Below are positions 105-10,564 of a DNA stretch of 64,000 nt, in pieces. Each line of letters starts with the position of its first letter. Position 1 is the first letter of the stretch. Where the stretch lies: the NCBI RefSeq assembly GCF_001463765.1, contig NZ_BBWK01000042.1, forward strand, positions 1 through 64,000. The letters run 5' to 3'. The notes beneath the pieces were generated by a model. It saw only the letters and a list, made by a program, of their open reading frames with translations, was not told the origin of the DNA and ran no database searches. Both the position numbers and the translations under genes were made by a program. Source of the DNA: Aureimonas sp. AU4 (GTDB lineage: Bacteria > Pseudomonadota > Alphaproteobacteria > Rhizobiales > Rhizobiaceae).

Positions 105-794
105 TCAGGCCGCGCTGCTGGCGCCGTCCTGCGCGCAGATCGCCGCCAGCACGCTGCGCGCCCCGTCATCGATCGCGTGCTCGATGGCGGTTCTGGCGGC
201 GTCGGGCTGTCGGCGCCGCAGGGCGTTCAGAAGGTCGCCGTAGTTCTCGTGCTCGGTCACGGCTCCCTGTTCGCGCTGGTACAGGTAGTTGAAGCCCGGC
301 CCCGCCTTGAGCCACAGGGTCTCGATCACCGCGAGAAGGTTCGGCATGGCCGCCGCCTTGTAGAGCGTGAATCGGAACTCCTTGTTCAAGGTCAGCGCGA
401 GATGGGGGTCGCTGTTCGACTTGGCGGCGAGGTAGCGCTGGAGGAGCGCCTCCATCTCCCCGATCTCGGCGGGCGAGATGCGCAGGGCGGCCTTGGCGGC
501 GGCCAGTCCCTCCACGGCCTTGCGGATCTCCGAGATCTCGAGGGTCTGCTCCCGACCCAGCGTCGGCACGCGAAACGATTGCGCGGGCTCGGCGGTCAGG
601 ATGCCGGAGGCGGCGAAGCGCACCAGCGCCTCACGGACGGGGGTGATGCTCATTCCGAGCGTGTCGGCGAGTTCCTTTGTGACGAGCCGCGTGCCCGGCT
701 CCAGCCGACCTTCGATCAGGGCGCGACTCAGCTCGTCCTCGACGAAGGCGACCAGGCTCTTGCGGGGAGCGGGTGTCAGGGATGCGATGCCCAT
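105..794 (-). CDS. GntR-family transcriptional regulator, FCD (FadR) subfamily
   Basis: A 229-aa DNA-binding protein. The winged helix-turn-helix spans about residues 15-75 (PGTRLVTKELADTLGMS.TPVREAL), followed by an all-helical FCD ligand domain (about 85-215) with the usual EH and terminal His positions. The FH motif that normally gives a metal-binding His reads FR (NKEFRFTLY), so metal binding may be changed. The gene is divergent from the dipeptide-type importer operon. Its ATG (792-794) lies inside the palindrome CCATATATGG, which suggests autoregulation. It is the obvious candidate to bind the ATATATCATATAT element found before both arms of the island. The ligand is unknown, probably an amino-acid- or peptide-like compound. 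Confidence 0.9.
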   Translation of the reverse strand: MGIASLTPAPRKSLVAFVEDELSRALIEGRLEPGTRLVTKELADTLGMSITPVREALVRFAASGILTAEPAQSFRVPTLGREQTLEISEIRKAVEGLAAAKAALRISPAEIGEMEALLQRYLAAKSNSDPHLALTLNKEFRFTLYKAAAMPNLLAVIETLWLKAGPGFNYLYQREQGAVTEHENYGDLLNALRRRQPDAARTAIEHAIDDGARSVLAAICAQDGASSAA

Positions 795-800
795 ATATGG
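791..800. promoter_or_regulatory. Palindrome over the start codon of the GntR gene
   Basis: CCATATATGG is a perfect 10-bp palindrome that contains the GntR gene's own ATG. Its ATATAT core matches the arms of the 13-bp element at 869-881. A regulator bound here would block its own initiation. Binding is inferred. Confidence 0.4.
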
Positions 801-868
801 TCCAGTCCGGAGAAAATCTGCCTAATTATTGGGATAACATCGCCCGCGCCCACGTCTTGCGCAAGAAG

Positions 869-881
869 ATATATCATATAT
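869..881. promoter_or_regulatory. Candidate GntR operator in the divergent promoter (copy 1)
   Basis: ATATATCATATAT is a perfect inverted repeat (6-bp arms around a central C) in an AT-rich patch of an otherwise very GC-rich region. It lies 66 bp before the ABC binding-protein gene and 75 bp before the GntR start. The same 13-mer recurs at 10552-10564 in the second divergent promoter of the island. Long AT-rich palindromes are rare at this base composition, so a shared operator is the simplest reading. Confidence 0.6.
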
Positions 882-946
882 TATTGCGGTGATCTGAACC
901 ACGGCGTTGTCGCCCGCGGCCGGCGCCCAACCGGAGATGCAGTCCC

Positions 947-7897: not shown

Positions 7898-8587
7898 CTA
7901 GAAACAGTCCTCGACGGTCCAGTGGACCGGAATTTCGGCGATGCTCGCGCTGGAGGGCAGCTCCAGGACGAGGTGGACGATGCGCGCGATGTCGTCGGGT
8001 TGCGTCAGCTCGGCGGCCGGCGTCGCGGTGATCGCAGCCGCCATGTCGGTGGCGACGAAGCTCGGGCAGATCGCGGTGGAACGCACGCCGCTCTCGGCTC
8101 CGCACTGGCGCAGCGCGTGGGCCAGGCCCATGGCGGCGAACTTCGACAGCGCGTAGAGGCCGCCGCCCGCCGACTTCACGCGCTTGCCCGAGAGCGACGC
8201 CATGGTGACGACCCGTCCCCTGGTCGCGACAAGATGGGGCCAGGCGTGGCGGGTCAGGCGCATCGGCGACTTGACGTTGATCCCGAACACCTCGTCGAAC
8301 TCGGCGTCGCTCGCCTCCAGGACCGAGCGGCGAGGAGCGATGCCGGCATTGTGGACGAGCCCGTCGAGGCGCCCGAACCGGGCGAGCGTCGCCTCGACCC
8401 ACACGCGCTCGCTTTCGGGGTCGAGCGCGTCGAAGCGGCAGGCGAGCACCCGCTCGCAGTCCGGCAGCGGGGTGGCCGCCGGGTCGCGCATACCGAGGCT
8501 GACGGCCCAGTCGTTGGCCGCGAGCCGGCCGGCGATGGCGGCGCCGATGCCTCGGGAGGCACCGCTGATCATGGCGACCCGGCGCAT
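7898..8587 (-). CDS. Short-chain dehydrogenase/reductase
   Basis: A 229-aa classical SDR: cofactor loop SGASRGIG (8-15), the HNAG motif near 80-83, catalytic Ser in MASLSGKR, and the Tyr-x-x-x-Lys pair in LYALSKFA. It lacks an Asp right after beta-2 (GMRDP), so NADP preference is possible. It lies between the double ATPase and the DadA-like oxidase with 3-bp gaps on each side, so it is cotranscribed with them. It may reduce a keto intermediate. The substrate is unknown. Confidence 0.85.
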   Translation of the reverse strand: MRRVAMISGASRGIGAAIAGRLAANDWAVSLGMRDPAATPLPDCERVLACRFDALDPESERVWVEATLARFGRLDGLVHNAGIAPRRSVLEASDAEFDEVFGINVKSPMRLTRHAWPHLVATRGRVVTMASLSGKRVKSAGGGLYALSKFAAMGLAHALRQCGAESGVRSTAICPSFVATDMAAAITATPAAELTQPDDIARIVHLVLELPSSASIAEIPVHWTVEDCF

Positions 8588-8590
8588 CGC

Positions 8591-10426
8591 TCAGGCCGCC
8601 CGCATCACGGCGGCAGCGTCCAGGACCTGGACATGGTGGCCCGGCGAGACCTCGCGCCATTCCCGGCGCGGAGGCGTGTAGCCGAGCGGGCGGATCGGGT
8701 TCTTGACCTCGCCGTCGTCGGCCGCGCGGCGCAGGCCCCGGCGCGCCGGATCGGGCACCGGAACGGCGTCGAGAAGACGCCGCGTATAGGGATGCTGCGG
8801 ATTCTCGAAGATCGCGGCGCGAGGACCGATCTCGACGATCTCGCCGAGGTACATCACCGCGACCCGGTGGCTCATGCGTTCCACCACGGCCATGTCGTGA
8901 CTGATGAAGAGATAGGAGAGCCTCAGGTCACGCTGGAGATCCAGCATCAGGTTGATGACCTGCGCCTTCACCGACACGTCGAGCGCCGAGACCGCTTCGT
9001 CCGCGACGATGACGCGCGGCTCGAGCGCCAGGGCCCGCGCGATGCAGATGCGCTGGCGCTGGCCGCCGGAGAACTCGTGCGGGTAGCGCGAGGCGACGTC
9101 GGGATCCAGGCCGACGCGCGGCAGGAGGTCGGCCACGCGCGCACGCGCGGCCTCGCGGTCCGCGAGGCCATGGACGAGAAGCGGCTCGGCGATCGCCGCG
9201 CCCACGCGCATGCGCGGATCGAGGCTGGCGAACGGATCCTGAAAGATCATCTGGATGCTGCGGCGAACGGTGGCGAGCTCGCCGGCGTTCAGCTTGAGGA
9301 TGTCCTGCCCGTCGAGCGCGATCGACCCGCCCCGGGCCGGGGTCAGGCGCAGGATGGCACGCCCCGTGGTGGACTTGCCGCAGCCCGACTCGCCGACCAG
9401 CGCGAGCGTCTCGCCGGCCCGAAGGTCGAAGGACACGTCCTCCACCGCATGGACGCGGCCCGCGACACGGCCGAGGAAGCCCGATGACAGATCGAAGCGG
9501 GCGACGAGGTTGCGAACCGAAAGGAGAGGTGGTCCCGCCTCGTCCGGCGCCTCCACCACCTCGTCGCCCGCGACCGCGGCGCCGGTCGTGGTGTCGATCA
9601 GGGGGAAGCGCGCGGGCCGAAGGGTGCCGCGCATCGATCCGAGCTGGGGCACGGCTGACAGGAGCGCTTTCGTATAGGCCTCGCGCGGCTCGCGGAAGAT
9701 CGCGGCGGTGTCGCCCGCTTCCACGACCTCGCCCCGGAACATCACGGCGGTCCGGTCGGCAATCTCGGCCACCACGCCCATGTCGTGGGTGATGAAGAGG
9801 ACGGCGAGGTCCTCGTCCTCCTGCAGGTTGGCGATGAGCTGGAGGATCTGGGCCTGGATGGTGACGTCGAGGGCGGTGGTCGGCTCGTCGGCGATCAGGA
9901 GCTTGGGCTGGCAGGCGAGAGCGATCGCGATCATGACGCGCTGGCGCATCCCGCCCGACATCTGATGGGGATACTCGTCGAAGCGCCGCGCGGCGGCGGC
10001 GATGCGTACCTTGTCGAGAAGGCGCAGCGTCTCCGCCTTGGCCGCGCGGAAGCCGAGGCGCCGATGCTGCATCAAGACCTCGGCCAGCTGGTCCCCGACG
10101 GTCAGCGAGGGGTTCAGCGAGGTCATCGGTTCCTGGAAGATCATCGCGATCCGGTTGCCGCGAATGTCGCGCATGGCGCGCTCGCCCGCCTGCAGCAGAT
10201 CGCGCCCCTCGAAGTGGACGCGCCCGGACAGGCGCGTCGTGTCGGTCGGGAGAAGTCGCAGGATCGACAGGGCGGTCACGCTCTTGCCCGAACCCGACTC
10301 GCCGACCAGCGCCACGGTCTCGCGCGGGCGGATGTCGAAGGACACGCCGCGCACGACCTCGCGCCAGCCGTCCTGGCGGGCAAAGGCAATGCGCAGGTCG
10401 TCCACGCGCAGGATCGGATCGGTCAC
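8591..10426 (-). CDS. Fused double ABC ATPase (DppD-DppF type) of the peptide importer
   Basis: A 611-aa protein carrying both ATPase halves in one chain. Half 1 has Walker A GESGSGKS (42-49), signature MSGGMRQRV and Walker [13 protein letters not shown]. Half 2 starts near residue 290, with Walker A GESGCGKS, signature FSGGQRQRI and Walker [13 protein letters not shown]. Each half is followed by the oligopeptide C-terminal extension ([11 protein letters not shown] and [11 protein letters not shown]). It is the only ATPase in the island and should power the permeases at 2447-4211, although it is on the other strand, 4.4 kb away. It heads the minus-strand operon that reads from the second operator region. 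Confidence 0.93.
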
Positions 10427-10551
10427 GCGAAAACCTCCTGGTCACTCTGCAAGGGCGGCAGCGTCCCGACCCCGCAGCATCCGCTTCGAGTGGGTCGCCG
10501 ATGCGCCGGAACTTCGGCAAGGGCAAAAACCACTTGCCGCCAGATTAGAGA

Positions 10552-10564
10552 ATATATCATATAT
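10552..10564. promoter_or_regulatory. Candidate GntR operator in the second divergent promoter (copy 2)
   Basis: The 13-mer ATATATCATATAT recurs exactly as at 869-881. It lies 65 bp before the PLP-enzyme gene and 126 bp before the fused ATPase gene, so one site can serve both directions. The 202-bp gap 10427-10628 otherwise shows only a GGAG ribosome-binding site just before the PLP gene and an AT-rich promoter-like patch. Confidence 0.6.

Follow-up and report, generated by a model that had tools for sequence, protein, structure and literature searches.

A conserved AT-rich 13-mer as the predicted operator of a McbR-like GntR regulator in Aureimonas sp. AU4

We analyzed a 64,000-nucleotide stretch of the Aureimonas sp. 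AU4 genome (contig NZ_BBWK01000042.1, positions 1 to 64,000), referred to here as the window. It contains an island of importer and enzyme genes in which the same AT-rich 13-mer, ATATATCATATAT, occurs in two divergent promoters. One of these belongs to gntR, which encodes a GntR-family regulator with an FCD domain. A third copy is located on another contig, upstream of a sulfurtransferase gene. The sites, their rarity and conservation, the gene order and the family assignments were read directly from the sequences. On these grounds we consider it probable that the three sites form one regulon and that the adjacent McbR-like GntR/FCD protein is its local repressor, with ATATATCATATAT as the predicted operator.

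The 13-mer in the genome and in relatives

The window was searched for the 13-mer with up to two mismatches. Four strand hits were obtained at two places, 869-881 and 10552-10564, both exact. The first copy is in the divergent promoter of gntR and a gene for a periplasmic substrate-binding protein (SBP). The second is in the divergent promoter of an importer ATPase gene (ABC) and a PALP-family lyase gene (Table 1). The exact matches and the layout of the open reading frames thus bear out the initial annotation, which had reported an identical 13-mer in both divergent promoters. The 13-mer consists of A and T except for one base, and the window is 69% GC. In 100 dinucleotide shuffles of the window, it occurred 0.01 times on average and once at most.

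The whole genome (4,492,370 bases, 139 contigs) was searched at the same threshold. The 13-mer was found at three places, all of them exact. The 13-mer read backwards, used as a control, was found at 0 places genome-wide. Under an order-1 Markov model of the window, 7e-5 places of ATATATSATATAT were expected in 4.49 Mb. The initial annotation had proposed this search and held that many unrelated promoters with the 13-mer would speak against a regulon; in this genome, such promoters were not seen.

To follow the island in relatives, we used an alignment scan with its M20-family protein, which yielded 74 loci. According to their titles, these came from alpha- and gammaproteobacteria plus a few others, e.g., Jiella, Rhizobium, Paracoccus, Acetobacter, Rahnella, and Pantoea. 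The archaeal locus L156 (28% identity) was excluded, which leaves 73 loci as the basis of the counts below. They had been fetched via two M20 peptide patterns, so the presence of M20 and its Met and Asn residues discussed below are biased. Probable duplicate records of the family scan and the named loci (L050/L083, L049/L084, and L048/L112) were never summed in a count.

In 60 of the 73 loci, gntR and SBP were detected as a divergent pair with fewer than 1500 bases between them. Of these 60 promoters, 52 matched the site at 10 or more of 12 letters. Among control windows, 137 of 4080 reached the best score of their own locus, a number that includes windows on second sites and the low scores of the eight misses. 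The divergent ABC/PALP promoters matched at the same level in 21 of 22 cases (the miss was L101), and 58 of 3884 control windows did so.

Twenty-five promoters, 24 from relatives and that of the window, were aligned on exact sites; the site columns are therefore conserved by selection, and the flanks alone are informative. A CTTG box was observed roughly 12-14 bp upstream of the site, with T at -12 in 96% of the promoters. A T at +15 was also kept in 96%. These positions appear to behave as a -35 box and as the final base of a -10 box. In the window, the putative -35 TTGCGC and -10 TATTAT are separated by 16 bp. The operator would span the spacer and the -10 box, which fits repression by occlusion. 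In many gammaproteobacterial gntR/SBP promoters, half-sites overlap in runs that advance by 7 bp (ATATAGGATATATCATGTAT; e.g., L124:6604-6623), which suggests that each promoter binds several dimers or at least two.

The initial annotation had also linked the gntR start codon to the 13-mer through CCATATATGG. This word is present at 791-800. It was found in 0 of 29 orthologous gntR starts (>55% identity) and looks like a coincidence for that reason, so it was rejected as part of the signal.

The third 13-mer (C49:3313-3325, outside the window) lies upstream of a gene for a relative of 3-mercaptopyruvate sulfurtransferase (NF008557, 248.9 of 250 bits; two Rhodanese stretches), whose candidate ATG is 13 bases past the site. 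Downstream is a gene for a BisC-family S/N-oxide reductase (C49:155-2407; TIGR00509, E 3e-266, 884.8 of 1017.55 bits), and its ATG likely overlaps the end of the sulfurtransferase gene. This promoter is only seemingly unrelated to the island, because relatives have a sulfurtransferase or BisC gene beside this gntR. Four loci of other genomes that hold the island gntR and SBP genes were compared. The sulfurtransferase, 61-66% identical, adjoins gntR in three of them: L049, L050, and L058 (short contig). The fourth, L048, has a more distant rhodanese elsewhere in the island and none beside gntR. Seventeen of the 73 loci have BisC, and in 13 of these (L091-L099, L102, L103, L112, and L154) it adjoins gntR. 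In Chelatococcus (L090), a 13-mer starts 47 bp upstream of the sulfurtransferase match. The third site thus recovers distant genes that neighbor this regulator elsewhere, which supports the regulon. Together with the conservation of both promoter positions, it upholds the earlier claim of one regulon; the size of about 15 kb given with that claim was too small, as the sulfurtransferase-BisC pair has to be added.

We propose the following mechanism. A GntR/FCD dimer bound to the 13-mer would cover the promoter spacer and the -10 box, causing repression rather than activation. The repressed genes would be gntR itself with SBP-permC-permB-M20-OCD, ABC-SDR-DAO with PALP-HyuA-HyuB, and the sulfurtransferase-BisC pair elsewhere (gene names in Table 1). 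The imported substrate or its product would bind to the FCD domain, the repressor would leave the DNA, and all units would be transcribed.

Genes of the island and the likely substrate

Table 1. Predicted regulatory sites and genes of the island in the window.
Feature	Position	Strand	Basis
Operator copy 1, ATATATCATATAT	869..881	+	window/genome search, conservation in relatives
Operator copy 2, ATATATCATATAT	10552..10564	+	window/genome search, conservation in relatives
Putative -35, TTGCGC	857..862	+	CTTG box in 25 aligned promoters; inference
Putative -10, TATTAT, overlapping operator	879..884	+	conserved T at +15; inference
gntR, FCD-domain GntR regulator, McbR-like	105..794	-	Pfam FCD 4e-20, GntR 1e-13; best PDB 4p9f E 2e-40
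SBP, SBP_bac_5 periplasmic binding protein, oligopeptide/opine/glutathione-type importer	947..2443	+	family models
permC, importer permease C-type	2447..3286	+	family models
permB, importer permease B-type	3291..4211	+	family models
M20-family protein, two metal-ligand positions substituted (Met81, Asn118)	4208..5566	+	family model, alignment
OCD, ornithine cyclodeaminase/mu-crystallin family, nearest SbnB	5563..6549	+	family models
DAO, FAD-dependent oxidoreductase (DAO superfamily), accessory	6554..7894	-	family models, relatives
SDR, short-chain dehydrogenase, accessory	7898..8587	-	family model, relatives
ABC, fused two-domain importer ATPase, GsiA-like (below GsiA cut-off)	8591..10426	-	family models
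PALP lyase, D-cysteine desulfhydrase/CuyA group	10629..11633	+	family models, solved relatives
HyuA, hydantoinase/oxoprolinase A subunit, accessory	11638..13668	+	family models
HyuB, hydantoinase/oxoprolinase B subunit, accessory	13665..15242	+	family models

The gene order suggests two divergent pairs of transcription units: gntR against SBP-permC-permB-M20-OCD, and ABC-SDR-DAO against PALP-HyuA-HyuB. Genes of the 73 loci were counted as linked BLAST groups (E 1e-25, 60% length), in which paralogues are possible, above all for ABC. OCD was present in 73 loci, permB in 69, permC in 68, ABC in 67, SBP in 66, gntR in 62, and PALP in 60. HyuB (22), SDR (21), HyuA (20), and DAO (20) were less frequent. 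A sulfurtransferase relative was found anywhere within the fetched locus in 61 of 73 loci, and BisC in 17 of 73. Judged by these counts, the core is the importer, M20, OCD, PALP, sulfurtransferase, and gntR, and the remainder is accessory.

Existing annotations of two plasmids agree with our family assignments. That of Paracoccus pantotrophus names an FCD protein, an M20 hydrolase, a D-cysteine desulfhydrase family protein, a rhodanese-like protein, an SDR, and hydantoinases; that of Ewingella names GntR, M20, D-cysteine desulfhydrase family, ornithine cyclodeaminase, and rhodanese-like proteins. Among 21 genomes of the window's genus, only the window's own had the M20 gene, and none of 20 relatives had the 13-mer, indicating that island and operator co-occur there. 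Three Acetobacter loci (L141, L148, and L153) contain M20, OCD, a sulfurtransferase relative, PALP, and the 13-mer, with no SBP or permease match. L148 and L153 also have TonB-plug and BisC-type genes within the fetched stretch.

In the M20 protein, Met81 aligns with the His of the HxD motif and Asn118 with the Asp of solved M20 proteins. We take this His and the bridging Asp to be metal ligands. Because both are replaced, the window protein lacks these marks of an active M20 metallopeptidase and may not be an ordinary one. Met81 was kept in all 73 sequences with a letter at this position and Asn118 in all 74, in a set fetched with peptides that contain these residues.

The best candidate for the substrate is a cysteine-derived amino acid, possibly S-oxidized or N-acylated/ring-closed, a guess to which we give about an even chance. 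It rests on PALP, the sulfurtransferase, BisC, and an NtaA/DmoA-type monooxygenase taken together. By family models and solved relatives, PALP is nearest to D-cysteine desulfhydrase. It scored above the cut-off only for the subfamily TIGR01275 (294.5 vs 289.4 bits), and CuyA gave 314 of 450 bits. The NtaA/DmoA-type family occurs in five loci (two members scanned). The initial annotation had held that this combination of genes has no assigned substrate. This fits the literature listings (titles and abstract starts in an open-licence library), in which the island was not recognized.

The proposed pathway would begin with import by the oligopeptide-type ABC system and opening or trimming by HyuAB and M20. 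Oxidation or reduction by OCD, DAO, SDR, and BisC would follow. The D-cysteine desulfhydrase/CuyA-type lyase and the sulfurtransferase would then carry out desulfurization.

Several observations weaken the case for a sulfur compound. The CuyA, DcyD, and BisC models stayed below their curated cut-offs, and PALP was also below that of XcbE. Members of the sulfurtransferase and BisC families can also have other roles. HyuAB, SDR, and DAO occur in only 20-22 of 73 loci and thus say little about the core substrate. To a real regulon with an opine-, lactam-, or peptide-type substrate, in which the sulfurtransferase and BisC would serve in redox or cyanide stress, we give appreciable weight as a minority reading. 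Relatives of the SBP are named YliB or agrocinopine-, nickel-, and dipeptide-binding proteins, and its best named model, GsiB of a glutathione importer, was far below the cut-off. OCD is nearest to SbnB, followed by relatives that include mu-crystallin/thiomorpholine-carboxylate dehydrogenase, and HyuAB is nearest to caprolactamase. The frequent sulfurtransferase relative in the 73 loci and the closeness of PALP to D-cysteine desulfhydrase argue against a non-sulfur substrate. PALP also has Thr288 where the Pseudomonas-type 1-aminocyclopropane-1-carboxylate (ACC) deaminase 1rqx has Glu. This residue lowered ACC deaminase as a candidate for PALP, though Thr is also found in the archaeal 1j0a, an entry likewise named ACC deaminase.

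The regulator and its DNA-reading residue

The window GntR scored above the cut-offs of the Pfam GntR and FCD models. Its best solved relative was E. coli McbR (4p9f, E 2e-40), and the next one followed at 3e-13. The best NCBIfam model was PRK11414, which we take to be McbR/YncC. Its score of 168.6 bits was below the cut-off of 225, indicating that the window GntR is a relative of McbR and not its ortholog.

In a hidden Markov model alignment, Ile50 of the segment SITPVREA occupied the position of Arg45 in FadR and Atu1419. Among the 18 FCD regulators of this genome, 13 have Arg at this position and five do not, the window GntR being one of the five. The fetched loci contained 62 orthologous gntR genes. 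None of the 60 readable ones had Arg; the segment was SITP in 40, SVTP in 13, SPTP in 4, and SLTP in 3. Twenty regulators, the window's and those beside the 13-mer in the family scan, were aligned as well: 17 had I, E, T, L, or V, two had Q, and one had R. This tally is not an independent test because the regulators were picked by similarity to the window GntR.

Arg45 reads an operator guanine in FadR and Atu1419, and a G-to-A change plus its partner abolished binding of the Atu1419 operator (PMC7797058). The canonical FadR-type operator class has TKGT/ACMA boxes (PMC4494728). ATATATCATATAT has no GT or AC box, and with Ile50 in place of Arg, the window system falls outside the FadR-type GT-N-AC class. 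An ATATAT-containing motif has been reported for E. coli McbR (PMC13343897); the excerpt of PMC6134199 on McbR gives no motif. A literature search for the exact 13-mer gave three papers, all of which, judged by title and abstract, deal with eukaryotes.

The family scan found ATATATSATATAT in 33 of 394 genomes. Around these sites in other genomes, 36 loci were fetched, and 20 of them held a GntR relative (E<=1e-4). About 3 of 36 would be expected by chance if 18 FCD genes were evenly spread over 4.49 Mb. Dissimilar islands with other FCD regulators carry two or three copies of the 13-mer in L018, L046, L047, L051, and L052; that of L018, with a branched-chain-type importer and alcohol dehydrogenases, is unlike the window's. 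The 13-mer as a signature of one substrate was rejected on account of such unrelated islands. Its sharing with other FCD regulators suggests that it marks a regulator subfamily.

In G064, a genome with the island, a third 13-mer (L072:9945-9957) was located upstream of a second oligopeptide-type permease match. The fetched stretch of L072 showed no GntR relative.

Other observations count against a close tie between this regulator and the site. Eight of the 60 gntR/SBP promoters had no good match (L085, L087, L088, L089, L107, L116, L126, and L128), and 16 of the 33 ABC promoters not divergent with PALP did not match, whereas 17 did. Five of the eight are Jiella loci (L085, L087, L088, L089, and L107). 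They keep the importer, M20, OCD, and gntR with SITPVREA, yet their best site reached 9 of 12 letters (L087, 9/12; L107, 8/12), and no PALP or sulfurtransferase match was found in the fetched stretch. Either weaker or other sites are used there, or the link of regulator and site is looser than thought. The regulators of L007-L010 (35-40% identical) also lack Arg, and the best site in their short loci was 9 of 12, indicating that loss of Arg alone fails to predict the site. No GntR relative was seen in 16 of the 36 fetched 13-mer loci. The 13-mer also recurs in unrelated islands beside other FCD regulators, mostly 28-43% identical.

This recurrence and the Jiella loci would fit a reading in which the 13-mer serves a different regulator (a nucleoid protein or a second one of McbR type) and the neighboring GntR acts otherwise; McbR itself is said to bind very many AT-rich E. 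coli sites (PMC13343897). We hold this to be unlikely. The 13-mer has three places only in this genome, a gntR relative is found in 62 of 73 loci, and the site is found in 52 of 60 divergent gntR/SBP promoters. Twenty same-genus relatives lack the 13-mer, and the 20 searched for the M20 gene lack that gene.

The 13-mer might instead be no operator but a promoter element of the AT-rich -10/UP type that transcription maintains, since it overlaps the putative -10 box and is A/T except for one base. If so, it should be common in the ordinary promoters of a genome with 69% GC, and the three occurrences, together with matches in 52 of 60 promoters unselected for the site, make this very improbable. 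Chance copies of a short, low-complexity word have a negligible probability, given the expectation of 7e-5 and the promoter positions conserved across two classes of Proteobacteria.

Comparison with known systems

A McbR-like local repressor with ATATATCATATAT as its predicted operator thus stays our preferred explanation. On this reading, a motif known from two copies becomes a testable regulon in two classes of Proteobacteria, one whose predicted operator is conserved, whose regulator is named, and for which a class of substrate is proposed. We tentatively extend this to a widespread pathway for an S-oxidized or otherwise modified cysteine compound, which would be run by a McbR-like subfamily that lacks Arg45 and reads guanine-poor ATATAT half-sites. 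With the same reserve, the pathway might comprise import, an M20-like protein with an abandoned metal site, an SbnB-like dehydrogenase, a D-cysteine-type lyase, a sulfurtransferase, and an S-oxide reductase.

Catabolic islands under a local GntR repressor are a known kind of system. The variant lies in a guanine-poor predicted operator with an Arg45 substitution and in a sulfur-linked gene set. It suggests how one GntR subfamily, with Ile or Val, Leu, or Pro for Arg45, departs from the operator class that contains G.

Ectoine utilization clusters (EutB/EutC, DoeB) resemble the island in combining a PALP protein, an ornithine-cyclodeaminase-type protein, an M20 protein, and a GntR-type regulator. 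In contrast to these, the EutC model gave 75.3 of 471.65 bits, far below the cut-off, and the regulon has the sulfurtransferase and BisC instead. An ectoine-type pathway was lowered as a candidate by this score. The D-cysteine desulfhydrase/CuyA sulfo-lyases, a group of PLP lyases, are nearest to PALP, which differs in scoring below the CuyA, DcyD, and XcbE cut-offs.

McbR (YncC), a VanR-type GntR/FCD protein, is the nearest structure to the window GntR, shares the segment SITPVREAL, and is reported to have an ATATAT-containing motif. Unlike with McbR, the sites here number three and belong to a catabolic island. Agrobacterium has Atu1419, a VanR-type FCD repressor that responds to a ligand; its palindrome, too, recurs unchanged in at least two promoters of a catabolic region and overlaps a -10 box (PMC7797058). 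The difference is that the Atu1419 operator, ATGTATACAT, has an essential G read by Arg45, whereas the system described here has ATATAT half-sites and Ile.

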